Shown: positions 5,175-46,729 of the stretch, piece after piece
Layout: each line of letters opens with the position of its first letter
Numbering within the stretch: position 1 is the stretch's first letter
IMG/VR virus record: IMGVR_UViG_3300009548_000502
Coordinates: 1 to 49,882 of that record
Direction: 5' to 3' (one strand)
Source: a virus
DNA: 49,882 nt
The notes under the pieces: model-generated
Seen by the model: only the letters and a program-made list of their open reading frames with translations
The model's database searches: none
What the model was told of the DNA's origin: nothing
Translations under genes and position numbers: made by a program

Positions 5175-5310
5175 TGTTTCACCACAGAGGCACAAAGGTC
5201 ACAGAGGAAGAGCAAAAGAGCATAAGCGCGGGGAGCTGAGCTCCCCACACCCCGCAGGACCGGCGCGCGTGCATTCCGCACGCGGCCGGGCAGCCGGCGA
5301 AGCGCATAAA
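5175..5310 (+). repeat. Repeat A arm followed by repeat B (copy B1)
   Basis: After the transposase stop comes a CACCACAGAGGCACAAAGG arm (family A), then repeat B at 5225-5310. B starts GCGGGGAG-CTGAG-CTCCCC, continues ACCCCGCAGG and CCGGCGCGCGTGC, and ends GGCCGGGCAGCCGGCGAAGC GCATAAA. B contains several inverted repeats and would fold strongly as RNA. The order A then B recurs at every full B copy in the window. Confidence 0.8.
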
Positions 5311-5320
5311 GGATGAAATC

Positions 5321-6473: not shown

Positions 6474-8206
6474 GCGCTAATGTCGAAGCGTGGCTTGAAC
6501 AAAATACAATCCGGTGTCCAATCGGCAGAGTGACGCAGGCTCAGTGCCGGCAGAATCGGGCGAGGCCGACCATAGCGCAATGGGCGCATGGAGATGCTCA
6601 CGGCCGTCCGGGAGAGATCACGCTGTTTCGGCCGAGGGAATGCGAAGCGTGCAGGGAGTGGAAAGAGCTTTTCGGGGGGGAGAAGCTTACCACAGAGACG
6701 CAGAGAGCTCAGAGGGCGCAGAGGAAGGACAAAAGATTAAAAGCGCGGGGAGTCGCACTCCCCGCACCCCGCATTGTCGACGCGCGTGCGCTGGAAGGCG
6801 CACGCGGCCGAGACGCCGGCGCCAAGGGCGCGATAAAAGAGCCGGAAGTGAAACCTTTGCCTACGCCCGCAGACGCCGCCGTGCGCCCTCACAGGAGATC
6901 GGACGCGAACTTGAAACGTTTAACATCGGCCGCCAGTGTTAGCGCGAATCCGAACGAAGTGAGGGTTCAAGGCGGCGCTACCAGCACGACAAAAGAGCCG
7001 GAAGCCATTCTTGTTCCTGTTCCAGACAAGCGGGAGAAAGAGCCAAAGGATAAATGGGGAAAACCCATCAGGGAATGCCTCGAATGCCACGAGCATAGGG
7101 GGATCGTGGGCCGGGGGCTTTGCTCAAAGTGCTGGTGGCATCAACCGGACGTCAAGGCGAGGAGAGATCAAAAGCGCCGGAAGGATGAACCCGCTGGCGC
7201 CGCCGGCGTGGTCATCGATCAATCGCTTCCTGTTTATAACAAAAAAGGCCGGGCAATCCTTCCGTGCCCTCCTTTAGAAAAGGTAGCGCCTATCATCCCG
7301 GCGTCTTCTATCGACAAAAGAGACGGGACCCAGACGGCGGCGATCATTCCCCCTCCCACGGCCGCAATCCTTGCGCCCGTGGTTCGGAAAAAAGGCCGAA
7401 AATATCCGGATTTTACCCCGGAGATGGATGCGGAGATCCGTCGCGTCTATGAAACCGAAGTGGGGATGATTGCGCCGCAGAAAGGGCGCCCGGTCCGTGA
7501 ATTGGCGGAAAAGTTCGGCTTGCCCCGCTGGAAGATAAGCAAAAGGGCGTTCAGATTAGGCGTAGTCCCCGTTTGCCATATCAAAAAAAAGGAGCCGGTT
7601 TGGGCGAAGGCCGAGCTGGCGCTTTTGAGGAAATATGCGGCGCTGACGGTGGAGCAAATACAGAGACGGCTCCGCACTGCCGGATACAGCCGGGGATTGA
7701 ACGCCATCAAAATTAAAGTCTACAGGATCGTCGGCCGCAAGCCCAGGGACGGCTATTCGTCGGGTTCCCTGGCCAAACGCTTCGGTATTGATTCGCACTA
7801 CATTGAACGCCTGATTAAATCCGGGCTTCTCAAGGCTGAAAGGCGCGGAACAAACAGGACTCAAGAGCAGGGAGGCGACTGGTGGATCATCCAGGAAGCC
7901 GCCGTTCGCGATTTTATAATCAAAAACCCGGAGATGGTGGATTTCAGGAAAGTTGATGGTCCCTGGCTGGTGGACGTTGTGGCCGGAAATTCTATTCACC
8001 ACGGAGACACAGAGAGCACAGAGAATGAACCACTCAGCACTCAGTCCTCAGGGCTCAGTGCTCGCGCTTCGCGCGCGGGGGGGGGGCATTATCCGAAAAA
8101 AATCGCGAAATGCGAAGGATGCCGGCGAAGGATGAAGATCCAAGGCCGGGGATTATGCGGCCGATGTCTTTACCACATATTGAAGGCCGAGAGGGCGCAA
8201 GGATAG
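6470..8206 (+). CDS. DNA-binding protein with duplicated zinc ribbon and HTH, repeat-invaded
   Basis: 578 residues, coupled by ATGA to the ATPase. It has two nearly identical four-cysteine modules, CLECHEHRGIVGRGLCSKCW (about 202-222) and CEGCRRRMKIQGRGLCGRCL (about 548-568), that flank a middle region with Myb/HTH-like segments (LAEKFGLPRWKISKRAFRLG and SLAKRFGIDSHYIERLIKSG near 435-455). About 100 residues (73-171) are encoded by dispersed repeats A, B, C and D in frame, and a further stretch near 508-535 (HHGDTESTENE and LSTQSSGLS) by other repeats. These segments are low-complexity and probably disordered. A role in early or middle regulation is inferred. No family name is assigned. Confidence 0.7.
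   Translation: MSANVEAWLEQNTIRCPIGRVTQAQCRQNRARPTIAQWAHGDAHGRPGEITLFRPRECEACREWKELFGGEKLTTETQRAQRAQRKDKRLKARGVALPAPRIVDARALEGARGRDAGAKGAIKEPEVKPLPTPADAAVRPHRRSDANLKRLTSAASVSANPNEVRVQGGATSTTKEPEAILVPVPDKREKEPKDKWGKPIRECLECHEHRGIVGRGLCSKCWWHQPDVKARRDQKRRKDEPAGAAGVVIDQSLPVYNKKGRAILPCPPLEKVAPIIPASSIDKRDGTQTAAIIPPPTAAILAPVVRKKGRKYPDFTPEMDAEIRRVYETEVGMIAPQKGRPVRELAEKFGLPRWKISKRAFRLGVVPVCHIKKKEPVWAKAELALLRKYAALTVEQIQRRLRTAGYSRGLNAIKIKVYRIVGRKPRDGYSSGSLAKRFGIDSHYIERLIKSGLLKAERRGTNRTQEQGGDWWIIQEAAVRDFIIKNPEMVDFRKVDGPWLVDVVAGNSIHHGDTESTENEPLSTQSSGLSARASRAGGGHYPKKIAKCEGCRRRMKIQGRGLCGRCLYHILKAERAQG
6685..6984 (+). repeat. In-frame repeat block A-B-(C inside D)
   Basis: Inside the gene at 6470, without interrupting the frame: an A arm (CACAGAGACGCAGAGAGC, about 6690-6725), repeat B (6742-6838, copy B2), then repeat C (6884-6968, copy C1) inserted in palindrome D. 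The D halves GCCGCCGTG and AAGGCGGCGCTACC flank C directly. Confidence 0.8.
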
Positions 8207-10774: not shown

Positions 10775-11257
10775 ATGGAACGAATAATTAGCCCACATCT
10801 GATGCGGCGTCGAGCTGGAAGAGGACCGCACGGAAAGGTCTGTGCGGAGTGCATCTCTTATGAGGAAGATGATGCGGAATATGAAGGGCTTTGCATTCAT
10901 CAGGAGCGGCCGTTCAATCCTTTTTATGTAGAGCGTTTATTCCCGGCCTGCGGCCTTTTCAGATCAGAATGGCAATATGAGCGCGAACTACTCGAGGCCC
11001 AGGGGCAATTGAGGCTCGGTATGTGTAGCCGCGTGAAAAAGGAAAGGCATTTTTATGATTTGCCTCCGGGGGCGGAGATGGCCGACCAGGACTGGACAAC
11101 TCCCGGATTTTGGCCGAGGACGCAAGGATCTTCCGCCGCCGTGCGCCCTCAAAAAGGATCGGACGCGAACTTGAATCGTTTAACGTCGGCCGCAAGTGTT
11201 AGCGCGAATCCGAACGAAGTGAGGGTTCAAGGCGGCGCTACCGGTGAGAATTTATGA
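10775..11257 (+). CDS. 4-Cys module protein with repeat-encoded C-terminus
   Basis: 160 residues. The functional part seems to be residues 1-115, with CAECISY, a middle LC and ACGLF giving the same four-cysteine module as its neighbours. Residues about 122-157 are encoded by repeat C inserted in repeat D (11135-11243), and read AAVRPQKGSDANLNRL and VSANPNEVRVQGGAT, almost the same peptide as in the protein at 6470. The natural C-terminus was probably replaced by this insertion. It ends in an ATGA overlap with the next gene. Confidence 0.65.
   Translation: MERIISPHLMRRRAGRGPHGKVCAECISYEEDDAEYEGLCIHQERPFNPFYVERLFPACGLFRSEWQYERELLEAQGQLRLGMCSRVKKERHFYDLPPGAEMADQDWTTPGFWPRTQGSSAAVRPQKGSDANLNRLTSAASVSANPNEVRVQGGATGENL
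11135..11243 (+). repeat. Repeat C inserted in D (copy C2)
   Basis: C occupies about 11144-11228 (CCTC... to GTGAGGGTTC), flanked by D halves GCCGCCGTG and AAGGCGGCGCTACC. It is a near-duplicate of the composite at 6875-6984. The two composites lie in two unrelated genes in the same reading frame. Confidence 0.85.
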
Positions 11258-13083: not shown

Positions 13084-13149
13084 TCTTCGCGGCTCCGCGT
13101 CTCCGCGTGAGATGCTTTCGAATTTTCGCGGCTTCGCGTCTTCGCGTGA
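13084..13149 (+). repeat. Two tandem 3' arms, TTCGCGGCTTCGCG family
   Basis: CTTCGCGGCTCCGCGTCTCC and TTCGCGGCTTCGCGTCTTCG, each ending GCGTGA, separated by a short spacer. No 5' arm is present in this gap. The endolysin start follows. Confidence 0.75.
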
Positions 13150-13170
13150 ACAAAATGAAAGGAAAAATCG

Positions 13171-14471: not shown

Positions 14472-14535
14472 CGCCGCCTGCCACGGCGGCGACTTCAAGC
14501 ATTTCACGCGAAGACGCGAAGCCGCGAAGAAAGGA
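14467..14535. repeat. D palindrome then 5' arm, TCACGCGAAG family
   Basis: D at 14467-14491 (GGTAGCGCCGCC-TGCCAC-GGCGGCG) right at the GemA stop. It is followed by a TCACGCGAAGACGCGAAGCC arm at 14502-14528 that leads into the next ribosome binding site. Confidence 0.8.
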
Positions 14536-14541
14536 AAAGTC

Positions 14542-14811
14542 ATGGCTCAGTTGCAACAATCTCCATTCTTAAGGCCGGAAGCATTGAAAAAATTTGAGGA
14601 AGTAACCGGAAAGTATGCTGTGGCTGTTGACCAATTACGGGCACTTTTCGATCAGGTGAGCGAGCACATGGTTGGCCCGGCGGTTGAGCTTGAAACACAA
14701 AAATCCGGCGAGCCAATCGTGACATTGCACGAGCCTGGAGAAATTGTCGAAATGTCGGACGGCCGTAAATACGAAGTACAGGATAATGGGCAGTGGAAAA
14801 GGATCAATTAG
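14542..14811 (+). CDS. Hypothetical 89-residue protein
   Basis: Predicted mainly helical N-terminal half (PEALKKFEEVTGKYAVAVDQ) and beta-rich C-terminal half (GEIVEMSDGRKYEVQDNGQW). An AAGGAAAAG ribosome site precedes the ATG. No family recognised. It sits among middle-region genes between GemA and Com. Function unknown. Confidence 0.55.
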   Translation: MAQLQQSPFLRPEALKKFEEVTGKYAVAVDQLRALFDQVSEHMVGPAVELETQKSGEPIVTLHEPGEIVEMSDGRKYEVQDNGQWKRIN

Positions 14812-14873
14812 AGATTTTTTCCCTCCATGCCCTCTGTGCCTCTGTGGTGAGCATCTTTTGAAAGGAGCATGAA

Positions 14874-23040: not shown

Positions 23041-23208
23041 GCGCGGAGCGGTGACCGTCCCGCACCCCTCAATATCCGGCGCACGTGCGCGCCCTCACAA
23101 AAGATCGGGCATGAGTTTGAAGTACCGAACGCTGGTTCTAATGCTCAGCGCGGACCTGAACGAAGTGAGGGTTCCGCACATGGCCGGGCAGCCGGCGAAA
23201 CGCATAAA
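23041..23208 (+). repeat. Repeat B interrupted by repeat C (copies B3/C3)
   Basis: B begins GCGCGGAG-CGGTGAC-CGTCCCGC and ends GGCCGGGCAGCCGGCGAAAC. Between CCGGCGCACGTGCGC and CGCACATGGCCGG sits a complete repeat C (23090-23174, GCCCTCACAAAAGATCGG ... GTGAGGGTTC). The uninterrupted B at 31627-31710 has CACGTGC-TATA-GCACGTGG at this place, so C lies in B's loop. Confidence 0.88.
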
Positions 23209-25403: not shown

Positions 25404-25407
25404 GGCG

Positions 25408-25492
25408 AATTGAGGGATTGAAAAACAATTAAGGGATTGAGGGATTGAAGTTCTAAATTCCTCAATTCTTAAATCCCTAAATGTCTTTCAAT
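25408..25492. repeat. Repeat bracket, AATTGAGGG family
   Basis: 5' arm AATTGAGGGATTGAAAAAC with further units; 3' arm TAAATTCCTCAATTCTTAAA and TCCCTAAAT. The unit AATTGAGG pairs with CCTAAATT except for one G/A mismatch per octamer. The next ribosome site (GGGAG) follows directly. Confidence 0.8.
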
Positions 25493-26200: not shown

Positions 26201-26416
26201 TCACGCGAAGACGCGAAGCCGCGAAGAGGTAAAAGACAAAGAAGTATCACACGGAGACGCGGAGACGCAGAGAGGGGGAAGGAGAATGCAGAAAAAACAG
26301 AAAGCATCGGGGGGTGGCTTCCTGTTTTGCCTGCTAAGCCAAAAGTTTTCTCTGCGGCTCCGCTTCTCCGCGTGAGAGGTTTTTGTTTTTCTTCGCGTCT
26401 TCGCGTCTTCGCGTGA
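26201..26416. repeat. Nested repeat brackets
   Basis: Outer pair: TCACGCGAAGACGCGAAGCC at 26200 and TTCGCGTCTTCGCGTGA ending 26416. Inner pair: CACACGGAGACGCGGAGACG at 26248 and CTGCGGCTCCGCTTCTCCGC ending 26375. The gap of 245 bases contains no gene besides these. Confidence 0.85.
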
Positions 26417-26433
26417 AAAAGGAGAATTAAATC

Positions 26434-26655
26434 ATGGGAGTGAAGACCGTACTTGCAGGCATTACCCTGACCGCCGCCGACTTGACGCAGGCGGAAAAGA
26501 TCAGCGCAGACCCGAACGGATTGATGCAGCAGGCGCAGGAAAAATGCGCGGAACTGATCGATCTGCTCGGTTTCATCGTGGCCGATATCCTGACTCCGGC
26601 CAGCGATGCGGCCAATATCGCCACTGTGAATACTCAGATTACGAACCTAAGCTGA
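26434..26655 (+). CDS. Small structural protein, paralogue of the previous gene
   Basis: 73 residues. Helical, with PASDAANIATVNTQI near the end and KCAELIDLLG in the middle, both shared with the preceding gene. AAAAGGAG precedes the ATG. The duplication is flanked by repeat brackets. Function unknown; possibly a minor capsid or scaffold component. Confidence 0.5.
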   Translation: MGVKTVLAGITLTAADLTQAEKISADPNGLMQQAQEKCAELIDLLGFIVADILTPASDAANIATVNTQITNLS

Positions 26656-26657
26656 GC

Positions 26658-26805
26658 ATTCACCGCAGAGGCGCGGAACGGCCTCACCACAGAGACACGG
26701 AGAGCATCGAGGAAAGAAAACGGCATAGTTAAAGAAGGGGACCTCTTGTCCCCTCTTGATTGTCTTTCTCCGTGACCTCTGTACCTCTGTGGTGGAATTT
26801 CGAAA
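26658..26805. repeat. Repeat bracket, family A
   Basis: 5' arm CACCGCAGAGGCGCGGAACG and CACCACAGAGACACGG; 3' arm CTCCGTGACCTCTGTACCTC then TGTGGTGG. AAAGGAGC follows, ahead of the ATG at 26816. Confidence 0.8.
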
Positions 26806-26815
26806 GGAGCTAATC

Positions 26816-27097
26816 ATGGCGACGAAAACGAGCGAAAAAGCGGTGGCAGGAATGCTGCCTGGTGAAGGGCTGGTGAAGGAAGAAGCGGCAAAAGCCAAGC
26901 CCGAGCAGCAAAAAAGCCATACCGCAAAGCTTATGGAAGCGCAGTCTCAGCTCGAAGCTGCCGCAAATGCCGCGCAGAAGGCCGGAGACTACCCGGCCCA
27001 CGCGTTGCTTCACGCGGCGTATGTGAGCATTAACGATCTTATGCTGCGCCTCAAGGCGGCCAAGCCGCATTTGGCGAAGTACGGGAAGGCGGATTGA
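26816..27097 (+). CDS. Small helical protein
   Basis: 93 residues, almost entirely helical and charged, with LMEAQSQLEAAANAAQKAGD and HALLHAAYVSINDLMLRL. AAAGGAGC lies 5 bases ahead of the ATG. It precedes the protease-scaffold gene. A scaffold or head-assembly accessory role is inferred from position and composition. Confidence 0.5.
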   Translation: MATKTSEKAVAGMLPGEGLVKEEAAKAKPEQQKSHTAKLMEAQSQLEAAANAAQKAGDYPAHALLHAAYVSINDLMLRLKAAKPHLAKYGKAD

Positions 27098-27102
27098 GGG
27101 AT

Positions 27103-27256
27103 TCTCCATTTAGGAATTTAGGAATTTAAGAATGAACCCTCACTTCATTCGGATTCGCGTTGAATATTTCAACCCGTGTGAAGCGATTTAAGTTCGGCGT
27201 CCGATCTTTTGTGAGGACGCAATTCTTTAATTCCTCAATCCTTCAATCCCTCAATT
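27103..27256. repeat. Repeat bracket of TAGGAATT family enclosing reversed C (copy C4)
   Basis: Arms TTTAGGAATTTAGGAATTTA and TTTAATTCCTCAATCCTTCA flank C on the minus strand (27134-27220, GAACCCTCACTTC...GTGAGGACGC). There is no gene in this 172-base gap. Confidence 0.85.
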
Positions 27257-27269
27257 AGGAGTAATCGCA

Positions 27270-28682
27270 ATGGCCAAACTGACGCAAAAAGAAAGAGATG
27301 CGCTTCCGGCGAGCGATTTCGCCGTGCCGGGCAAGCGAGAACTCCCGATGCACAACGAAGAGCACGTGAGGCTCGCCTGGGACATGGTAAATCGGACCAA
27401 GGACCTCACTCCCGAAGAAAAAAAGCGCGCGCGGGAGCGGATACTCGAGAGGGCGAAGAAATTCGGGATCGATACCAGAGAATGGCAGAAGCAGGAAGCA
27501 GGAAGCGGGAAGCAGGAAGCAAAATCCCGGCAATTCGCCGGTGTGCGCTTTGAGGCGATGGCGCTGGAACTGCCCGAAGTATCCGGCCATCCGAACAGGG
27601 CCCCTTTTTCCGGCGTGCTCCTGCGGGTGAACGAACCGAGCGATTATGCGGTCGGAGGCGCGGACGGGCACAGGACCTTTATTCCGAAAGAAGCGGCGGA
27701 AAAGGCATTGCCGAGCCTGCTCGGAATGGGCGTGGATTTTAAGGCCACTCTTGACGGCCACGATCCCAAGAAGAAAATCGGTCTGATTACCGGAGACGAT
27801 ATCGACCGGAACGCGCTCACCATAGAAGGCTTTTTCTACGCGAAGGATTTCCCTGAAGAAGTGGCCCTCATCCGCGAGGAAAAGGACCTGCTCGGATTCA
27901 GCTATGAAGCGGACGTCCGGGTTCGGGACATGGACGAAGATCCCTGGGTAATCGAGGAAATAACATTTACGGGGGCGGCGGTGCTCTACAAGGCCGATGC
28001 CGCATACACGACAACGTCTTTGGCGGCGCAAGCCGAAAAGGAGAGTGCTGAGATGGAAGAGTTGAAAAAGCTCTTGGGAGAACTCGGAAAAAGGCTGGAG
28101 AAGCTGGAAGCAGCGCAGACATCAGCGCAGAGCCAGATTGAGGCCAACAAGGCCATCATGGACAAGGTGCACCCGCATGCCGAGGCGTGCAAGGCCTGCG
28201 CAGAAGCTTGCAGGGCCGAAGGGATCGGGCTGCATGCGACACGCGGTCATGTGGCGGTCCTGCACAAAATTGCGCATCACATGGAAACCGAGGCCGCACA
28301 GGGCCGGATGCCGCATGAACTGCCTTCGAGTGTTTTCCACGATACGAATTGGATGTATGCAATGCAGGCCGGCGCGGAGGGCGAAACCAAAAAGCTGTTC
28401 GAAGGCATCAAGGCCGAGATCGAATCCATCGGGACGCAAATGAAGGACCTCCAGGCGAAGGCTTTTGAGGCTGCCGCAAATCCGGGAAGAAAGACACTCA
28501 CTCCGGAAATCACTGCCCTGCTCAACAAAACCGGCTTGCTCGCCAGCATTGAAAAGGGCGAACTGAATGTCGAGGATGTGGACAGAACGCTCGAAGCAGC
28601 CGGGATTAAGGGACGTGCGGCCATAGAGGCGAAGCTCAAGCTGGCAGCCGGGGGACTTCTGCCGATGGGGAAAGCTGCGTAA
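27270..28682 (+). CDS. Prohead protease fused to scaffold domain
   Basis: 470 residues. Residues 1-68 (KLTQKERDALPASDFAVPGK, PMHNEEHVRLAWDMVNR, RERILERAKKFGI) match the DUF6582-type domain often found at the start of phage head-maturation proteins. A linker EAGSGKQEAKSR is repeat-encoded. The central region LGFSYEADVRVRDM with VIEEITFTGAAVLYKADAAY (about 210-245) fits the prohead protease fold. A long coiled-coil scaffold follows (about 258-300). AGGAG precedes the ATG. It would process and shape the procapsid before capsid maturation. Confidence 0.8.
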   Translation: MAKLTQKERDALPASDFAVPGKRELPMHNEEHVRLAWDMVNRTKDLTPEEKKRARERILERAKKFGIDTREWQKQEAGSGKQEAKSRQFAGVRFEAMALELPEVSGHPNRAPFSGVLLRVNEPSDYAVGGADGHRTFIPKEAAEKALPSLLGMGVDFKATLDGHDPKKKIGLITGDDIDRNALTIEGFFYAKDFPEEVALIREEKDLLGFSYEADVRVRDMDEDPWVIEEITFTGAAVLYKADAAYTTTSLAAQAEKESAEMEELKKLLGELGKRLEKLEAAQTSAQSQIEANKAIMDKVHPHAEACKACAEACRAEGIGLHATRGHVAVLHKIAHHMETEAAQGRMPHELPSSVFHDTNWMYAMQAGAEGETKKLFEGIKAEIESIGTQMKDLQAKAFEAAANPGRKTLTPEITALLNKTGLLASIEKGELNVEDVDRTLEAAGIKGRAAIEAKLKLAAGGLLPMGKAA

Positions 28683-28691
28683 AAAACTCTT

Positions 28692-28846
28692 CACCGCAGA
28701 GACACAGAGAGTATAGAGGCTAGGCAAAAATGATCTCACGCGAAGCCGCGAAGACGCGAAGCAAGGCAAAAGTTGGGCTTTTCGTATTCCCTTCTTCGCG
28801 TCTTCGCGTCTTCGCGTGAAAACTCTTTCTCTGCGCCTCTGTGGTG
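28692..28846. repeat. Nested repeat brackets, reverse nesting order
   Basis: Outer pair is family A (CACCGCAGAGACACAGAG at 28692 and CTGCGCCTCTGTGGTG ending 28846). Inner pair is the GCGAAG family (TCACGCGAAGCCGCGAAGAC at 28736 and TTCGCGTCTTCGCGTGA ending 28819). At 26201-26416 the order is the opposite, with the GCGAAG family outside. Confidence 0.88.
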
Positions 28847-28874
28847 AATAACTGCTTTTAAGGAGGGAAAGGCG

Positions 28875-31514: not shown

Positions 31515-31640
31515 ATGGAACTTTTAGCAGTTTTTATAGCACTTTTCGTAATCTGGCTTTTGGCTGAAAACAAAAGCATTCACCACAGAGGCACAGAGGA
31601 CACAGAGGAAGGGCAAAAAATAAGGACCGCGGGGAAGTGA
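31515..31640 (+). CDS. 41-residue membrane peptide with repeat tail
   Basis: MELLAVFIALFVIWLLA is a full transmembrane helix, followed by ENKSIHHRGTEDTEEGQ, which is encoded by a 5' arm of repeat family A, and ends inside repeat B. GATAAGAGAG precedes the ATG. It lies between GGACTGAGGAC repeats and the A-B-C repeat block. May be an expressed small membrane protein or a chance frame. Confidence 0.4.
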   Translation: MELLAVFIALFVIWLLAENKSIHHRGTEDTEEGQKIRTAGK

Positions 31641-31828
31641 CTTCCCCGCACCCCGCAGGGCCGGCGCACGTGCTATAGCACGTGGCCGGGCAGCCGGCGA
31701 AGCGCATAAAGATTTTTTCGCGCGTCCTCACAAAAGATCGGACGCGAACTTGAAGTATTTAACATGGGTTGAAATGTTCAACGCGAATCCGAAAGAAGTG
31801 AGGGTTCCTTCGTGATCTTCGTGGTGAG
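31575..31828 (+). repeat. Repeat block A - B - C - CTTCGTGGTG arm (copies B4, C5)
   Basis: A 5' arm at 31580-31609 (CACCACAGAGGCACAGAGGA), uninterrupted B at 31627-31710, C at 31722-31807, then CTTCGTGATCTTCGTGGTGA at 31809-31828 and a GAGAAGGG ribosome site. With 31515-31640 this fills the 378-base gap between genes. Confidence 0.88.
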
Positions 31829-33003: not shown

Positions 33004-33075
33004 AATAAACAAATTCAGGAATTGAGGGATTGAAGAATTGAGGAATTGAATTCCTAAATCCCTAAATCCCTAAAT
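33004..33075. repeat. Repeat bracket, AATTGAGG family
   Basis: 5' arm ATTGAGGGATTGAAGAATTG and 3' arm CCTAAATCCCTAAATCCCTA fill the gap. AGGAGGG follows, ahead of the sheath ATG. Confidence 0.8.
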
Positions 33076-33088
33076 TCAGGAGGGCAAC

Positions 33089-34636
33089 ATGCCTGTAGTT
33101 CAGCAGGGACAAATCAATTTAACGGCGCTTATCGTGCCCGACGTGTACGTGCAGATCATTCCGCCGAGCAATTACCTCATAAACGGTCTGCCGACGAACA
33201 TCCTGGGCGTTGTGGGAACTGCGGCCTGGGGGCCGGTCAATTCGCCCACGATCATCGGAGACATGTGGCAGTACGCGCAGCTTTTCGGGCAGATCCAGGC
33301 GCGCAAGTACGACATGGGTACGGCCGTTGCCGGGGCGGTCCTTCAGGGGGCGAGCAATTTCAGGTGCGTGCGCGTTACGGACGGCACGGACCTGGCGGCG
33401 AATACGACCATCCAATCCACCTGCCTCACGGTGACATCGAAATATACCGGGAGCCTCGGAAGCGGCCTCCAGGTCACCATCGCGGCGGGGTCCGCCGCCA
33501 ATAGCTGGAGGGCCACGGTTTCCATGCCGGGCGTCATGCCCGAAGTCTTTGACAACCTGGCCGCCGGGCTCGGCGGAAATGCGGTCTGGCTTGCCATCGC
33601 AAGCGCCATAAATAACGGCATATCGGGTCTTCGGGGTCCGAGCCAGCTCATCGTGGCGAGCGCCGGGGCCGGGACTGCCGCACCTTCGCCGGGGACAGTC
33701 ACTCTTTCCGGAGGAACGGACGGCGCATCGGGAGTTACGGCGAACACCCTTCTCGGCCAGGACACCATCCCGAGGCAGGGCATGTACGCTCTCAGAAATA
33801 CCGGGGCATCGGTCGGGATGCTCGCCGACTGCGATACTTCGGCCACGTGGACAACGCAGGTAGCCTTCGGACTAAGCGAAGGCGTCTATATGATCATGGT
33901 CGGGCCTGCCGGGGACACGATCAGTAATGCCACGGCGACGAAGGCCTCAGCCGGCATCGATTCCTACACGGCTAAACTCCTGTTTGGCGACTGGATCTAT
34001 TTCAACGATACGGTCAACAACCTGGTGCGGCTCATCTCGCCGCAGGGGTTTATAGCGGGGCTTCTCTCGAACCTCTCCCCGCAGAATTCGACCTTGAATA
34101 AGCAGCTCTACGGGATCGTCGGGACCCAGAAGAGCATGCAGAACCAGGTTTACTCCGCTGCCGACTTGCAGGCCCTGGGCCAGGCGGGGATCGACCTGAT
34201 TTGCAACCCGGTGCCCGGCGGCAATTATTTCGGGGCCCGGTTCGGCTGGAACACGTCGAGCAACCAGGTCATTCACGGCGACAACTATACGCGCATGACG
34301 AACTACATCGCCTACACGCTCAACGCCGGCATGGGCTATTACGTGGGCAAGACGCAGAGCCTCGATCTGCAACGGCAAGCAGCCGCGACTCTCACTGCCT
34401 TTCTCATGAACTTATGGACCATCAACCCGCCCATGATCGGGAACAGCCTCGGCACGATACCTTTTTCGGTCGAATGCGACGCGGGCAACAACCCGCAGAA
34501 CATGGTGGCCCTGGGATACATGACGGCCTCCGTGATGGTCACATACCTGTCCATAGTGGAGAAGTTCATCATAAACCTGGAAGGCGGCCAGAGCGTACAG
34601 GTGAACAAGGTCAGCACGCAGATCGCGCCGCAATAG
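33089..34636 (+). CDS. Tail sheath protein
   Basis: 515 residues, the contractile sheath. Typical sheath features: PDVYVQIIPPSNYLINGLPT and VGTAAWGPVNSP early, a variable beta-rich insertion, and the conserved C-terminal domain LDLQRQAAATLTAFLMNLWT with MVTYLSIVEKFIINLEGGQS. AGGAGGG precedes the ATG. Downstream lies the tube gene, the usual sheath-tube order of myoviruses. It contracts to drive the tube through the envelope. Confidence 0.9.
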   Translation: MPVVQQGQINLTALIVPDVYVQIIPPSNYLINGLPTNILGVVGTAAWGPVNSPTIIGDMWQYAQLFGQIQARKYDMGTAVAGAVLQGASNFRCVRVTDGTDLAANTTIQSTCLTVTSKYTGSLGSGLQVTIAAGSAANSWRATVSMPGVMPEVFDNLAAGLGGNAVWLAIASAINNGISGLRGPSQLIVASAGAGTAAPSPGTVTLSGGTDGASGVTANTLLGQDTIPRQGMYALRNTGASVGMLADCDTSATWTTQVAFGLSEGVYMIMVGPAGDTISNATATKASAGIDSYTAKLLFGDWIYFNDTVNNLVRLISPQGFIAGLLSNLSPQNSTLNKQLYGIVGTQKSMQNQVYSAADLQALGQAGIDLICNPVPGGNYFGARFGWNTSSNQVIHGDNYTRMTNYIAYTLNAGMGYYVGKTQSLDLQRQAAATLTAFLMNLWTINPPMIGNSLGTIPFSVECDAGNNPQNMVALGYMTASVMVTYLSIVEKFIINLEGGQSVQVNKVSTQIAPQ

Positions 34637-34644
34637 GGGCGAAT

Positions 34645-34712
34645 TGAGGGATTAAGGAATTGAGGGATTGAAGAATTGAATTCCTAAATTCCTAAATTCT
34701 TAAATTCCTAAA
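34645..34712. repeat. Repeat bracket, AATTGAGG family
   Basis: 5' arm TTGAGGGATTAAGGAATTGA and 3' arm CCTAAATTCCTAAATTCTTA, followed by AGGAG and the tube ATG. Confidence 0.8.
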
Positions 34713-34728
34713 TTTTCAGGAGAATAAA

Positions 34729-36906: not shown

Positions 36907-37005
36907 ATGATTACACTGCCCTTGTGCACGCTTGGAGTTGGCGCGACGTTTTTTCTCATGATCGGCCTGGCGATTGGGGTGTCTTTGCTTAGCAAGATAA
37001 AATAA
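36907..37005 (+). CDS. 32-residue membrane peptide
   Basis: MITLPLCTLGVGATFFLMIG then LAIGVSLLSKIK: one transmembrane helix with a short basic end. Alternative start ATG at 36898. It is preceded by a GGGTAATGGGTGATGGGTGA repeat that may have replaced its own leader. No family. It may be a small membrane protein read from the late transcript. Confidence 0.4.
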   Translation: MITLPLCTLGVGATFFLMIGLAIGVSLLSKIK

Positions 37006-37006
37006 T

Positions 37007-37144
37007 TGAGGAATTGAGGGATTGAGGAATTGCGTCCTCACAAAAGATCGGACGCCAAACTTAAATCGCTTCACATGGGTTGAAATGTTCAACGCGAATC
37101 CGAATGAAGTGAGGGTTCATTCCTAAATCCCCAAATTCCTAAAT
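37007..37144. repeat. AATTGAGG bracket enclosing repeat C (copy C6)
   Basis: 5' arm TTGAGGAATTGAGGGATTGA at 37007-37030, C at 37032-37118 (GCGTCCTCACAAAAGATCGG ... GTGAGGGTTC), 3' arm CCTAAATCCCCAAATTCCTA ending 37143. AATGGAG follows at 37143-37148, the ribosome site of the tape measure gene. Confidence 0.88.
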
Positions 37145-37156
37145 GGAGAATTTAAA

Positions 37157-38992: not shown

Positions 38993-39000
38993 GAAGAGAT

Positions 39001-39033
39001 CCACCACGAAGGATACGAAGAGCACGAAGGGAG
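39001..39033 (+). repeat. 5' arm, CACCACGAAGG family
   Basis: CACCACGAAGGATACGAAGA then GCACGAAGG, right after the tape measure stop. The next gene's ribosome site (AGGGAGCAGG) follows. The matching 3' arm (another family) lies at 39507-39529, after the Tat-signal gene. Confidence 0.8.
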
Positions 39034-39038
39034 CAGGG

Positions 39039-39488
39039 GTGGACATAACAAGACGGCAATTTTTAAAAGCTTTGGCTGCCGCAACGGTGGCAGCTCAAAT
39101 TCCCGTCTCCGCTTTTTCTGCGACACGCATGCCATATGTAAATGTCGGAGAGGCCGTCGATTACATCGGCCACCATCCTTATCCAGGACCATTAGGCTCA
39201 CCAATTGTACTGGAAGTCGGATCTTGGGATGGCCTTGGATATCCAATTGTCTTGGATATCTGCGGGCGATATCCATCAGCGGTCGCAAAGGGTTATGACT
39301 TCGATTTTGCAGTTCTGAGAAATGAATACCCACCCGACATCTGGGGGCATCCAGAGAACAGGGCGAAATATCCCAATGTGCAAACCTATATTCGGACGCG
39401 TCGATTTGGCGAAACAGTAGAAGAGGCTATTCGTCACTTGAATTATACAAGTACTGAAAAATGGCTGAAGTATGGGTGGAGTTTTTAA
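39039..39488 (+). CDS. Tat-exported accessory protein
   Basis: 149 residues from GTG (AGGGAG 5 bases upstream). The N-terminus has a twin-arginine motif TRRQFLKAL followed by AAATVAAQIPVSAFSAT, a typical Tat leader with AFSA cleavage region. The mature part (MPYVNVGEAVDYIGHHPYPG, WDICGRYPSAVAKGYDFDFA, EEAIRHLNYTSTEKW) is of unknown fold. It is placed inside the tail operon between tape measure and hub genes and is bracketed by repeat arms of two families. It is not a virion gene by any recognised motif; a moron-like lysogenic or lytic effector in the periplasm is inferred. Confidence 0.7.
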   Translation: MDITRRQFLKALAAATVAAQIPVSAFSATRMPYVNVGEAVDYIGHHPYPGPLGSPIVLEVGSWDGLGYPIVLDICGRYPSAVAKGYDFDFAVLRNEYPPDIWGHPENRAKYPNVQTYIRTRRFGETVEEAIRHLNYTSTEKWLKYGWSF

Positions 39489-39506
39489 TGGGATGCTATT
39501 TCCCTT

Positions 39507-39529
39507 CGCGTCTTCGCGTCTTCGCGTGA
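39507..39529 (+). repeat. 3' arm, TTCGCGTCTTCGCGTGA family
   Basis: CTTCGCGTCTTCGCGTCTTC then GCGTGA, followed by AAAGG and the ATG of the next gene at 39542. No 5' arm of this family precedes it; the Tat gene lies between this arm and the CACCACGAAGG arm at 39001. Confidence 0.8.
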
Positions 39530-40647: not shown

Positions 40648-41751
40648 ATGTCAGCGATAAATCCGGTCCCATTGAAAAACGCCCTCCGGCTGCCTCGGGC
40701 CATTGTCCAGGTGAACGGGGCGGCGCTGCCCGGCTGGGTCGAGTGGGACGTGAATAATAATACCCACCGGCAAGCAGACACCTTCCGGGTGACTTACGCC
40801 TGCGGGAAGCTCCCCGCGAGCCAAAACGCCGGCTGGCTGACGGCTCAGGGCAAAATCCAGGTGCAGATATTCGCCGGATTTCCTCAAAATCCGAACAGCT
40901 TCTCCGCCGCCGAGCTGACGAGTTTGATACTCGGCAACTGCGACCGGCAATCATACGATCCGGAGCAAAATATAATCGAGCTTTCCGGCCGGGACCTCAC
41001 GTCGGAAATGATCGACACGAAGACCAGCGAGAATTTTTTAAACCAGACGGCGTCGCAGATCGCGACAACGATTGCCGGCCGCCACGGCCTTACTCCGGAC
41101 GTCGATAGTACGGGCGGTTTGGACGGGACGTTTTACGAAATAGATTACGCCCGGCTGAACAACGCATCGAGCGAATGGGACCTCCTATCCGAGCTCGCGG
41201 ATGATTACGGCTATAACGTCTGGGTGGATGGGAACACCCTGCGCTTCAAGTCGCAGGACAGTTCAGACACGGGCATCTATCTGATCCAGTGGCTCCCCAG
41301 GAGCGCCCGGCAGGGTTTCCCGCAGGCAAACGCCATGCGGCTTCGCTTCACACGCAATAATATGCTTTCGCAAAAAAATACCCAGGTAACCATCCGCTCC
41401 TGGAACTCGAAAATGAAGGCAAAAATGACCGGCCAGGCTACGGCGACGAGGCCGAACGCAGTCGGAACGCTCAATTACTTGTACAATGAACCGGGTCTCT
41501 CACAGGCCCAGGCGAACACGCGGGCGAAAGAACGGCTGAAGGGCATCATCCAAAACGAGATGACACTCAGCGCGACCCTGCCGGGAGATAATCTTTTAAA
41601 TACGCGGGTGCTTGTCCAGGTGAGCGGAACGGGCACTGCTTACGATCAAACATACTGGCCGGTGACTGTCTCGAGGCGCATGGGCCCCGAAGGATATACG
41701 ATGGACCTGGAAGCCAAGAACCACGCTCCGGAAATGGAAACGGATTCATGA
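40648..41751 (+). CDS. Baseplate hub protein (Mu gpP / P2 gpD-like)
   Basis: 367 residues. Typical hub features: PRAIVQVNGAALPGWVEWDV, TFRVTYACGKLPAS, VQIFAGFPQNPNSFS, IIELSGRDLTSEMIDTKTSE and LLSELADDYGYNVWVDGNTL, as in late control D / gp44-type proteins. AAAAGG lies before the ATG. It forms the trimeric or hexameric hub on which the spike attaches. Confidence 0.83.
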   Translation: MSAINPVPLKNALRLPRAIVQVNGAALPGWVEWDVNNNTHRQADTFRVTYACGKLPASQNAGWLTAQGKIQVQIFAGFPQNPNSFSAAELTSLILGNCDRQSYDPEQNIIELSGRDLTSEMIDTKTSENFLNQTASQIATTIAGRHGLTPDVDSTGGLDGTFYEIDYARLNNASSEWDLLSELADDYGYNVWVDGNTLRFKSQDSSDTGIYLIQWLPRSARQGFPQANAMRLRFTRNNMLSQKNTQVTIRSWNSKMKAKMTGQATATRPNAVGTLNYLYNEPGLSQAQANTRAKERLKGIIQNEMTLSATLPGDNLLNTRVLVQVSGTGTAYDQTYWPVTVSRRMGPEGYTMDLEAKNHAPEMETDS

Positions 41752-41752
41752 T

Positions 41753-41834
41753 TGAAGGATTGAGGAATTGAGGAATTGAAAAGCAATTAAGGAATTGAGG
41801 TGCCTAATTCCTGAATTCTTAAATTCCTAAATTG
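41753..41834. repeat. Repeat bracket, AATTGAGG family
   Basis: 5' arm TTGAAGGATTGAGGAATTGA, 3' arm CCTAATTCCTGAATTCTTAA and ATTCCTAAATT, followed at once by GGAG and a TTG start. Confidence 0.8.
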
Positions 41835-41843
41835 GAGTTTTTA

Positions 41844-42449
41844 TTGAAAAATGCCGGCGATCTAAACGATGCCATGCGCAGGCAGGCGCTGCTGGCGGCC
41901 GGGACCCTGGCTGGAGAAAAAGACGGCACGATCACGTCTTATGACCCCAATGCCTATGCGGTCAAGGTAATGATCCAGCCGGACGGCTACGAAACAGGCT
42001 GGATCCCGCTGCCGTCCGTTTTTGTTGGAAACGGATACGGCGCCTATTTCGGCCCGGAGATCGGGCAGGCGGTTTCGGTCACTTTCGCGGACGGGGACAA
42101 GGACAACGGCAGAATAAGCAAATTCTTTTTCAATAATGTCGAAGTGCCGATAAAGAGTCCCAACGCCGTCCAAAGCGGTGAAATCCTCCTTCAGGACAAA
42201 GCCGGCAATATGATCCGGTGGAGTCCCGTACAGAATAAATTGATTATCACCGCCAACAAGGAAGCCGACCTGAACGTCGGGACGAACCTGGACGTAGCGA
42301 TCCAGGGCAACGCAACGATTACGGTTACCGGCAATATCAATCTCACGGCAGCCGGGGGTGATATCACGGTCGCCGGGATAAGTCTTGTGAATCATGTGCA
42401 TACTGGCGGCACGCTGGGCGGTGGGGATACCGGGCCGCCCGTAGCATAA
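41844..42449 (+). CDS. Baseplate spike protein (Mu gp45 / V-like)
   Basis: 201 residues, TTG start at 41844 with GGAG 6 bases upstream (a TTG at 41832 lies inside that site). N-terminal OB-like region (GTITSYDPNAYAVKVMIQPD, GYETGWIPLPSVFVGNGYG, IGQAVSVTFADGDKDNGRIS) and a C-terminal beta-helix (TNLDVAIQGNATITVTGNIN, SLVNHVHTGGTLGGGDTGPP). The HVHTGGTLGGGDTG ending is the iron-binding tip consensus of membrane-piercing spikes. It pierces the outer membrane on contraction. Confidence 0.87.
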   Translation: MKNAGDLNDAMRRQALLAAGTLAGEKDGTITSYDPNAYAVKVMIQPDGYETGWIPLPSVFVGNGYGAYFGPEIGQAVSVTFADGDKDNGRISKFFFNNVEVPIKSPNAVQSGEILLQDKAGNMIRWSPVQNKLIITANKEADLNVGTNLDVAIQGNATITVTGNINLTAAGGDITVAGISLVNHVHTGGTLGGGDTGPPVA

Positions 42450-42614: not shown

Positions 42615-43010
42615 ATGGCCCAACAACTTCTAAGCGATCTCTACCAGATCTGGTCGACGGACCTGGAGGCATCAAATAGCGGGGATCTTCAGGCCGTGAC
42701 GGGCACGGAACGCGGCAAGCAGCGGATATTGAGACGCCTCATGACCAACCCGGGCGATTATATTTTCGACCCAAGCTATGGACTCGGGCTGCCGCAATAC
42801 GTGGGCCAGCCGCAGAGCAAGGATATGCTCGATAAGATCAATGGGATTGCATCGAGCCAGATACTCCAAGAGGCTGTAGTTGCGCCTTCGCCGCCTCCGG
42901 TTGTGAGCATAACGCAGCTTCCGGATTTTTCGTTGTGGGTCTGGATCCAATATGTGGACGCGCCAACGGGCACGCCGATTGTGTTGAGCTTTAACGTGGA
43001 AAACGATTGA
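42615..43010 (+). CDS. Baseplate wedge protein (Mu gp46 / gp25-like)
   Basis: 131 residues. LSDLYQIWSTDLEASNSGDL, GTERGKQRILRRLMTNPGDY and IFDPSYGLGLPQYVGQP match the Mu gp46 / T4 gp25 family of baseplate wedge proteins. The conserved 'RRLMTNPGDYxxDPxYG' region is clear. No strong ribosome site. It precedes the baseplate J gene, as in Mu. Confidence 0.85.
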   Translation: MAQQLLSDLYQIWSTDLEASNSGDLQAVTGTERGKQRILRRLMTNPGDYIFDPSYGLGLPQYVGQPQSKDMLDKINGIASSQILQEAVVAPSPPPVVSITQLPDFSLWVWIQYVDAPTGTPIVLSFNVEND

Positions 43011-43013
43011 GGA

Positions 43014-43099
43014 ATTATAAAATTGAGGCATTGGGGAATTGAAGAATTGAGGGATTAAAAACCAATTCCTAAATTCCTAAATTCTTAAATTCCTAAATT
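43014..43099. repeat. Repeat bracket, AATTGAGG family
   Basis: 5' arm ATTATAAAATTGAGGCATTG, 3' arm CCTAAATTCCTAAATTCTTA and ATTCCTAAATTT, followed by AATGGAG and a TTG start for the next gene. Confidence 0.8.
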
Positions 43100-43118
43100 T
43101 TTGAATGGAGAATTGATT

Positions 43119-44261: not shown

Positions 44262-44415
44262 TCACGCGAAGCCGCGAAGGCGCGAAGAAAGGCAAAAGTG
44301 GGGAAAGTGGGAAAATATCTTCTGCCGGCAGCGCGGATCTCGCCCGAGTCGAGCAAGTTTTTGCCCTTAAAGTGGGAATTTTATATTTCCCTTCGCGTCT
44401 TCGCGCCTTCGCGTG
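44262..44415. repeat. Repeat bracket, GCGAAG family
   Basis: 5' arm TCACGCGAAGCCGCGAAGGC and 3' arm CTTCGCGTCTTCGCGCCTTC then GCGTGG before GAGAAGG. The middle holds AAAGTGGGGAAAGTGGGAA. Confidence 0.85.
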
Positions 44416-44429
44416 GAGAAGGTTCTTGA

Positions 44430-45275
44430 ATGGCAATAGGCGACCAAAACGACATCAAAACCAGGCTCATAAGCTACCTGCCGCGCTCGTGGTTCGACGG
44501 CGATTCGAACCCGGTCCGCGACGCCGTGCTGTCGGGCCTGGCTGCCGGGCATTCGTTCATATATTCGCTGCTGGCCTATGTGCGCCTCCAGACCCGCATA
44601 AAGACGGCAACCGAAGGCTTCCTGGACCTGATCAGTCAGGATTTCTTCGGCGGGGCGCTCCCGAGGCAGATCAATGAGAGCGATGCGCGGTTTCTGTCGC
44701 GCATAATCGTCAATATTTTCCGCGAACGGGCCACTCGGAACGGCGTGATCGATGTCCTCGAACAACTGACCGGCCTGGCGCCAAAGATTATCGAACTCCT
44801 GAATCCGGGCGATTGCGGCGCGTACGGGGCGCCGAACAGCGGCTACGGATCGGCCGGCGCTTACGGCTCGATGCTTTTGCAGTATCAGGCTTTCGTGCAG
44901 GCGTTCAGGCCGTCCCCATCCGGTATCAAAAATGTGGCGGGATATGGATTTAGCGGGCCGTCCGATTCGGGGATTAGCGCCCTGCTTTTTAATGGCATGC
45001 CGGTTGCGCCGGCGCCGAGCGCCGGGTCCAAAACCAACGCGGATCAATCTCTTTCGCCGGCGTCGCTGCTCTTTGACGGTGCGCCGGTGCAGGACACCTA
45101 CTGGACCATCGGGGCTTATCCGCCCGCTCCGGGAGGCTATGGCGCCGGGCAGATCGAATACTGCACGCTGGATATGATCCAGGGCGCGGTTACGGACGCG
45201 GATATTTATGCGGCCATCGCGAGCGTGCTTCCTGAAGGGACAATTGCGTGGGTGAATATCAGCAACCCACCATAA
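44430..45275 (+). CDS. Tail protein (Mu gp48 / P2 gpI-like)
   Basis: 281 residues. Helical N-terminus (RLISYLPRSWFDGDSNPVRD, DAVLSGLAAGHSFIYSLLAY) and YVRLQTRIKTATEGFLDLIS resemble the gpI/gp48 tail protein family. The C-terminal half is Gly/Pro-rich and less conserved (APNSGYGSAGAYGSM). It is located between baseplate J and tail fibre genes, the usual place for this protein. Confidence 0.75.
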   Translation: MAIGDQNDIKTRLISYLPRSWFDGDSNPVRDAVLSGLAAGHSFIYSLLAYVRLQTRIKTATEGFLDLISQDFFGGALPRQINESDARFLSRIIVNIFRERATRNGVIDVLEQLTGLAPKIIELLNPGDCGAYGAPNSGYGSAGAYGSMLLQYQAFVQAFRPSPSGIKNVAGYGFSGPSDSGISALLFNGMPVAPAPSAGSKTNADQSLSPASLLFDGAPVQDTYWTIGAYPPAPGGYGAGQIEYCTLDMIQGAVTDADIYAAIASVLPEGTIAWVNISNPP

Positions 45276-45289
45276 ACGGATTGAGGAAT

Positions 45290-45391
45290 TGAAGAATTGA
45301 GGAATTGAGGAATTGGCTAAAACTAATTGAAGAATTGAAAAGCAATTGAGCTCTTAATTCCTAAATTCCCAAATTCCTGAATTCCTAAATT
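45290..45391. repeat. Repeat bracket, AATTGAGG family
   Basis: Several 5' units (AATTGAGGAATTGAGGAATTG) and 3' units CCTAAATTCCCAAATTCCTG then AATTCCTAAATT, immediately followed by GGAG and the tail fibre ATG. Confidence 0.8.
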
Positions 45392-45400
45392 GGAGTCTTT

Positions 45401-46729
45401 ATGGACAGACAAATCGTATATTCAGGGCAAATTCCTCTTTCGACCGATCTTTTAAGCGCCGAAAAAAACGCATACCTGGCCCTGCTGAAACTGGCGGCCG
45501 GGGTCCTGGGGACGAATACACTCATCAACGGCCTTTCATGCGTCCCGACGAATCCGGCGAGCGATTCCGTGATTGTCAATCCCGGCGAGGTTTATTCGCT
45601 CCAGACGCTGGACGCCAATGCCTATTCGGACCTCGGGACCGATTCCCGGTCAGTCCTGAAGCAGGGGATCATCACGAGCCAAACGACGCTGAACCTGGCG
45701 CAGCCGGCGACTATCGGCTACAGTGTGAATTACCTGATCGAGGTTGCGTTTTCTGAAACCGATGCCGGATCGACTATTTTGCCCTATTACAACAGCGGCA
45801 ATCCTGCGCAGCCATACAGCGGGCCGGGCGGAACAGGGGCATTCCAAAATACGGTCAGGCAGGATACTATCATCATCCAGGCCAAAGCCGGGATTGCGGC
45901 GCCTACCAATAGCCAGGCGACGCCCACGGTCGACGTGGGCTTCATCGGGTTATTTGTGGTCCAGGTGGATTATGGGCAGACTGCTATTGGCAGCAATCAT
46001 ATCACCCATGTATCCGGGGCCCCCTTCATCAGCGAAACCCTTACCCAGAAGATCAGCGAGGCGACAGCAGACCTCCGCTATGCGCAGCCGATCAACGTGC
46101 AAAACGGCTCATACGTCTATGGCGCGGATACCGGATCGGCCAATGCTTATGCGGTAACCTATACGCCGGCCATCAGCGCGCCCAGTGACGGGATGGTGCT
46201 CATTTTCACACCGGCCCATTCCAGTACCGGCCCTTCAACTCTTAACGGGGCGCCGATCTATGGGCTGGCCGGAGCGTCTCTCCAGGGCGGGGAAATCTTT
46301 GCCGGAGGCCGGGCTCAGGTTAAATGGAATTCATCGCTTGGAGTTTGGATTTTACTGAATTGCGAAGGCGGCCCGCTCCAGGTTGCAGATGCTACCGCGA
46401 GCAAGCATGCCCTGAACCGTGAATCCGCAGACGCCCGGTATCTCCAGTCAGTCAATTTATTCAGCAATGTATACAATGTCAGGTCCGGGCGGCAATTCGG
46501 CACTGTGTATACGAACAATACGGGCAAGCCGATGTTTGTTTCAGTAAATGCCTTATCAAATCCGTCACAGGGCGGGACACTGAATCTGTATGTAAATGGA
46601 CTCACTATAGCTTCGAGCGCCGGAGGCTTTGACGTAAATATAACCGTTTGTGGAATTGTTCCTGTGGGAGGCACTTATGAGGCCGGCACGGACTATGCGA
46701 CGCTTACGAATTGGACGGAGACATATTAA
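45401..46729 (+). CDS. Tail fibre protein, copy 1
   Basis: 442 residues. The first ~220 residues are closely similar to the next gene (VYSGQIPLSTDLLSAEKNAY versus IYPGQVPLETDLLNVNKMAY, and the conserved NYLIEVAF, PYSGPGGTG, SGAPFISETLTQK). This would attach to the baseplate. The C-terminal half (VTYTPAISAPSDGMVLIFTP, GRAQVKWNSSLGVWILL) is a fibre and knob region and is different. It binds the host receptor. Confidence 0.85.
   Translation: MDRQIVYSGQIPLSTDLLSAEKNAYLALLKLAAGVLGTNTLINGLSCVPTNPASDSVIVNPGEVYSLQTLDANAYSDLGTDSRSVLKQGIITSQTTLNLAQPATIGYSVNYLIEVAFSETDAGSTILPYYNSGNPAQPYSGPGGTGAFQNTVRQDTIIIQAKAGIAAPTNSQATPTVDVGFIGLFVVQVDYGQTAIGSNHITHVSGAPFISETLTQKISEATADLRYAQPINVQNGSYVYGADTGSANAYAVTYTPAISAPSDGMVLIFTPAHSSTGPSTLNGAPIYGLAGASLQGGEIFAGGRAQVKWNSSLGVWILLNCEGGPLQVADATASKHALNRESADARYLQSVNLFSNVYNVRSGRQFGTVYTNNTGKPMFVSVNALSNPSQGGTLNLYVNGLTIASSAGGFDVNITVCGIVPVGGTYEAGTDYATLTNWTETY

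Follow-up and report, generated by a model that had tools for sequence, protein, structure and literature searches.

Nested inverted-repeat brackets in a phage genome as probable short derivatives of an element that carries a GxxExxY nuclease gene

MITEs with autonomous partners, for example the Correia elements, are short, non-coding, multicopy sequences that are bounded by inverted repeats and lie between genes. Dispersed intergenic palindromes that occur in pairs are also known as REP, BIME or REPIN sequences, which are accompanied by the Y1 transposase RAYT. In Rickettsia, palindromic elements can be read in frame as protein and insert inside ordinary genes, and we know of no nuclease partner for them. 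The Rpn/YhgA-like (transposase_31) proteins are small PD-(D/E)XK nucleases that have been linked to RecA-independent recombination and gene acquisition; RpnA shows little or no sequence specificity, two separate acquisitions of rpnC at one syntenic location were suggested, and the term "inverted repeat" is absent from that paper (PMC5350276).

We analyzed a 49.9 kb stretch of viral DNA from IMG/VR, hereafter the window, in which a first-pass annotation had claimed two nested brackets with opposite nesting order, at 26201-26416 and 28692-28846, each with both of its symmetrical arms. Coordinates and folding confirmed both brackets, and all four arm pairs were found. The arms, placed from sequence and folding, are the following.

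Locus 1
26201-26227, plus strand: outer left arm, C type (CGCGAAG units)
26247-26273, plus strand: inner left arm, C' type (CGCGGAG units)
26349-26375, minus strand: inner right arm, C' type
26390-26416, minus strand: outer right arm, C type; the orthologous pair in relative L225 stands without an inner pair
Locus 2
about 28690-28718, plus strand: outer left arm, A type (CACAGAG units)
28736-28761, plus strand: inner left arm, C type
28794-28819, minus strand: inner right arm, C type
28823-28849, minus strand: outer right arm, A type; missing in relative L225

The outer C arms of locus 1 consist of TCACGCGAAGACGCGAAGCCGCGAAGA and its near-complement, and the inner pair has the sequence TCACACGGAGACGCGGAGACGCAGAGA, with one diverged unit in its right arm. 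Because the two arms of a bracket are inverted copies, a single strand folds into one hairpin. As single-stranded DNA, locus 1 was predicted to form one long nested hairpin at -72.8 kcal/mol, against -35.3 kcal/mol for shuffled sequences (z -10.9, 0/200), and locus 2 another at -49.6 against -22.8 kcal/mol (z -9.6, 0/200). The idea that each unit forms a stable GNA mini-hairpin was dropped, since A-type units do not fit it.

Arms were counted over the window as tandems of the unit pattern C[AG]C[AG]NAG. There were 47 of them, whereas each of 20 dinucleotide shuffles gave 0-2. By our own gene calls intergenic DNA makes up 18% of the window, and it contains 35 of the 47. They follow one design with different letters, which gives the types A (CACAGAG), B (CACGAAG), C (CGCGAAG) and C' (CGCGGAG); the arms of a further type, D, are made of AATTGAGG units with letters other than these. 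When arms were matched by type, 8 pairs closed properly and 31 of the 47 arms had no same-type partner, under a rule that overlooks the inner pair of locus 1 because of the diverged unit in its right arm. The phage brackets are short non-coding elements bounded by inverted repeats, with no ORF inside, and most of them follow a stop codon and precede the ribosome-binding site of the next gene. The architecture of D-type brackets (AATTGAGG / CCTAAATT units) is that of the other types, and they were seen at 25404-25480, 33005-33093, 34637-34728, 41738-41847, 43001-43101 and 45272-45405.

Un-nested arm-loop-arm units occur elsewhere in the window, at 44262-44415 and at 27101-27247 with 37005-37151. 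They are listed here with two further arrangements and with the copies of Z1, a dispersed repeat of about 90 nt that has CCTCAC/GTGAGG ends of its own and often lies within arms.

44262-44415, no strand assigned: un-nested C bracket, its ends matching the inner bracket of locus 2 (28736-28777 at 92.9%, 28769-28818 at 82%)
27101-27247, no strand assigned: complete D-arm, Z1, D-arm unit, 92.5% identical, inverted, to 37005-37151
37005-37151, no strand assigned: second D-arm, Z1, D-arm copy, inverted relative to 27101-27247
13085-13150, minus strand: C' right arm followed by a C right arm, as in the right half of a nested pair, with no left partners nearby; 85% over 67 nt to 26354-26420
31579-31828, no strand assigned: mixed bracket, an A-type left arm and a B-type right arm around Z1 and a second repeat, Z2
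27130-27220, 37032-37122, 31722-31811, 6880-6968, 11140-11228 and 23087-23175: copies of Z1

We compared the two loci with those of related phage contigs. Four contigs (L003-L006) are 99.99% identical to the window over the shared stretch and are uninformative on nesting. In L007, which is about 72% identical, locus 2 is empty, the aligned ends of the genes on either side being 25 nt apart, and locus 1 is occupied by a different, GC-rich repeat. L225, also about 72% identical, shows only the outer C pair at locus 1, the inner C' pair being absent. Its locus 2 comprises the C pair together with a left A-like arm that other sequence interrupts and that the automatic rule scores as C'; the right A arm is missing, indicating that loss or gain of a single arm also occurs. 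Over 21 orthologous gaps in phage relatives, pairs were present, absent or of another type, and turnover at these gaps is fast.

The states of L225 and L007, the un-nested units in the window and an exchange of cassettes in Sphingomonas described below support one part of the first-pass annotation, namely that an arm-loop-arm can be one mobile unit. Insertion of one bracket into another is our best reading of the nesting itself, but the order of events at the two loci does not follow from these data, given the single-arm state of L225 at locus 2 and the number of window arms that lack a same-type partner. Those same observations would be accounted for by stepwise local growth, in which slippage expands the units and hairpin-templated copying mirrors the arm, so that nothing moves and nesting is repeated local duplication: the arms consist of tandem repeats, many stand alone or in brackets of mixed type, L225 retains the inner pair with the left outer arm only, and templated mirroring would also keep both arms alike. 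We consider local growth unlikely, because orthologous gaps differ in whether they have a whole pair and of which type, one complete unit is found again in inverted orientation elsewhere in the window, the same letters occur in unrelated phyla, and arm type goes with a nuclease gene and not with the site. The gaps bear also on the proposal that the brackets are regulatory RNA hairpins, terminators or mRNA stabilisers selected at gene ends independently of mobility. Their usual position between stop codon and ribosome-binding site agrees with that proposal, yet it also fits elements that survive only where nothing breaks, and the orthologous gaps of relatives often have no hairpin or one of another type; a purely regulatory origin therefore seems very improbable.

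The C bracket had no match in annotated phage records; its plasmid matches were mostly from Sphingomonas, and one of them was annotated GxxExxY. An exact scan for C arms returned at least 119 stretches in bacteria and archaea, and those listed came, according to record titles, from Alphaproteobacteria, Chloroflexota, Planctomycetota, Verrucomicrobiota, Lentisphaerota, Acidobacteriota, Desulfobacterota and methanogenic archaea. C arms were counted in twelve whole genomes, which had 7-255 copies each, and a reversed control pattern gave none. An ORF for GxxExxY (TIGR04256/PF13366), a small nuclease (~130 aa) of the PD-(D/E)XK superfamily, was found inside three brackets, two from Sphingomonas and one from a MAG labelled Akkermansia. 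The arms were translated into both ends of the GxxExxY protein, a likeness to the palindromic elements of Rickettsia.

The arms are associated with GxxExxY genes. A GxxExxY gene was present in 20 of 24 arm-bearing genomes, and inverted arm pairs were found at 18 of 30 GxxExxY loci in these genomes, which span many phyla, whereas none of 283 random windows of the same loci had such a pair; the other 12 loci lacked a strong arm pair. Because the 24 genomes had been picked for C arms, the test was repeated on other sets. Arm pairs occurred at 15 of 24 GxxExxY loci in Syntrophobacteraceae and Methanoculleus (0/229 random windows) and, with a looser threshold, at 15 of 30 in Bacteroidota that were unselected for arms (0/287). 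ORFs of 100-215 aa in arm-rich loci served as a control; of 504 such ORFs, 12 were bracketed, 6 of them GxxExxY and 1 antisense to a GxxExxY match. The letters of the arms vary at GxxExxY genes (CGCAGAT, CACGAAT, CACGAAC, CGCTAAG and others) and the design is constant: a 7-nt unit, CRCRNA followed by G, T or C, in tandem with a period of 8-10.

The predicted structure of GxxExxY (pLDDT 87.6) has the PD-(D/E)XK topology. A fold search gave weak, generic matches to PD-(D/E)XK nucleases (lambda exonuclease, a Cas4 protein), and a sequence search of the PDB found no relative. GxxExxY resembles Rpn in being a small PD-(D/E)XK nuclease but belongs to another Pfam family, Rpn being PF04754. Since such a nuclease, rather than a DDE, Y1 or serine transposase, is encoded by the ORF of full elements, the element does not classify as an insertion sequence. 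GxxExxY/PF13366 was detected in about half of the sampled Bacteroidota genomes (73/148) and in archaea too. In the openly accessible literature we found neither an account of GxxExxY/PF13366 function nor a mention of the arm sequences; an earlier description elsewhere keeps some probability.

A single intergenic gap in Sphingomonas, between genes that we take to be fabD and fabG, allowed the full element to be compared with its derivatives. In many species (L286-L315) the gap is filled by arm-GxxExxY-arm of about 470-500 nt, and in others it is empty, at 24-53 nt (e.g. L321-L324, L329, L330). L336 has a 184-nt bracket there in which both gene ends are left and the nuclease gene is internally deleted, and L331 has 78 nt with arm remnants only, a second degree of cassette decay. 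We typed 31 cassettes by arm letters with a simple rule and mapped the types on quick trees, near copies included. On the nuclease tree, arm type required 3 changes, the minimum (shuffled mean 13.7, 0/200), whereas on the flank tree it required 14 (shuffled mean 13.9). Arm type is thus co-inherited with nuclease type and random with respect to the flanks, indicating that arm-ORF-arm is exchanged as one cassette at this site while the flanks stay. L286 and L288, for example, are near-identical in their flanks but differ in arms and nuclease. The two arms of one locus match each other (mean score 23.2, against 11.7 for arms of other type), and the nuclease is under purifying selection, dN/dS being far below 1 in close pairs (e.g. 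0.02 against 0.62). Neither a target-site duplication nor an exact junction between empty and filled sites could be defined, the flanks at empty sites being only ~75-86% identical; homologous replacement within the flanks keeps some residual probability.

One might suppose that the arms are older palindromes moved by something else and that GxxExxY genes use their loops as safe insertion sites. Many brackets do lack a GxxExxY gene, and arms also receive insertions of other repeats (Z1 and, in Methanoculleus, a different one), as docking sites of this kind would predict. At the Sphingomonas site, however, arms and gene change together while the flanks stay, with arm type random on the flank tree, and we regard such docking as quite unlikely. 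The best reading is that the arms form the termini of a nuclease-gene element spread over many phyla.

Methanoculleus offered a further set of genomes, in which C arms numbered from 0 to 247 (35 genomes). The five arm-richest (92-247 C arms) are among the six that have GxxExxY (Mann-Whitney p=5e-4, kinship ignored), and many genomes without GxxExxY keep up to 84 arms. We also asked how the arms relate to a Y1 (RAYT-like) transposase, the mover of REP/BIME/REPIN-type repeats. Like REPs, the palindromes are intergenic and number tens to hundreds per genome, but Y1_Tnp (PF01797) was absent from the five arm-richest genomes, and genomes that have it hold few arms (0-8; one weak match at 57). RAYT was accordingly rejected as the mover in Methanoculleus, where arm copy number does not depend on the Y1 transposase, and the arms differ from REP also in having no fixed REP sequence; a REP-type origin is hardly credible. 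At one orthologous Methanoculleus gap the bracket was present, absent or inverted between species, and a second repeat was inserted within an arm. Pairs of Methanoculleus genomes gave no exact empty site with a duplication. At L234 16050-16420 and its orthologues (G004 and G014 versus G024, G020 and G021), the whole bracket and some flank were inverted between species.

No GxxExxY match was found in the window or in 40 other virus records, and the phage brackets are placed in the family of GxxExxY elements solely as ORF-less derivatives. The probable host clade of the phage is the Syntrophobacteraceae, whose GxxExxY genes carry the arm types of the phage: A (L343, L346), B (L345, L347) and C (L352, L360). 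The tie to GxxExxY is made for these three types, and D-type arms lie outside it. Repeat Z1 links the phage to this family: it was present in 26 copies in a Syntrophobacteraceae MAG titled bog_1154 (G001) and in none of 25 other genomes of the family, and the right arm of a GxxExxY element in L257 is interrupted by it. G001 has 5 GxxExxY matches, two of which were examined and have A- and C-type arms; it has about 0.065 arms per kb (40 in 619 kb) against 0.94 per kb in the phage; no nested pair was found in the 619-kb sample (L409-L448). With so low an arm density, it can at most be related to the host. The arms of the phage are thus about 15-fold denser per kb, which is unusual for a compact phage genome.

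We propose, with a probability of roughly 0.68, that the phage brackets are short, ORF-less, MITE-like derivatives of an arm-GxxExxY-arm mobile element on whose arms the nuclease would act. The full element, about 470 nt in Sphingomonas, would be the minimal mobile cassette, and internal deletion of the nuclease gene would yield short brackets, an origin seen in Sphingomonas L336 and presumed for the phage copies themselves. Brackets would settle in harmless intergenic gaps and into one another, and nesting could hence arise in either order. As the phage has no GxxExxY, the enzyme would come from a host whose GxxExxY genes have matching arm types, and it probably recognises the arms in hairpin or cruciform form; that such recognition drives movement is suggested by the match between arms and nuclease, and the phage brackets would have arrived by the route of the GxxExxY element.

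Such an element resembles a MITE with its autonomous partner in kind, in that brackets share terminal arms with a coding element and an internal-deletion derivative is seen. It differs in that a lone ~130-aa PD-(D/E)XK nuclease takes the place of the DDE transposase as partner, that the arms are tandem 7-nt units whose letters differ by element type, and that no target-site duplication was defined. What is new is the nuclease-only partner together with tandem-unit arms tied to nuclease type, and an element of this sort has apparently not been described before. A broader proposal, to which we give slightly less than even odds, is that the lone nuclease recognises its matched arms in a lock-and-key co-evolution, that cassettes are exchanged at fixed sites and brackets mobilised in trans onto phages, and that this element class is common to bacteria, archaea and phages. 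If GxxExxY is the engine of a mobile element, this would give a role to a nuclease family that has none known and would account for a large class of intergenic hairpins that are so far unexplained; if true, the arm-nuclease match would make the element testable, and phages would be suggested as carriers between hosts.

Two further observations concern repeat Z2 and single arms. Z2 is a GC-rich repeat ending in GGCGAAGCGC, with window copies at 5210-5311 and 31610-31711, and is similar in style to an intergenic repeat of L007 (2330-2520, 3130-3270 and 6980-7120 of that contig). Single arms of differing type flank a whole gene at 14507-14846 (C left arm, gene, A right arm) and at 38998-39526, where a gene with a twin-arginine-like start lies between a B left arm and a C right arm; both genes look as if they were bracketed cargo.
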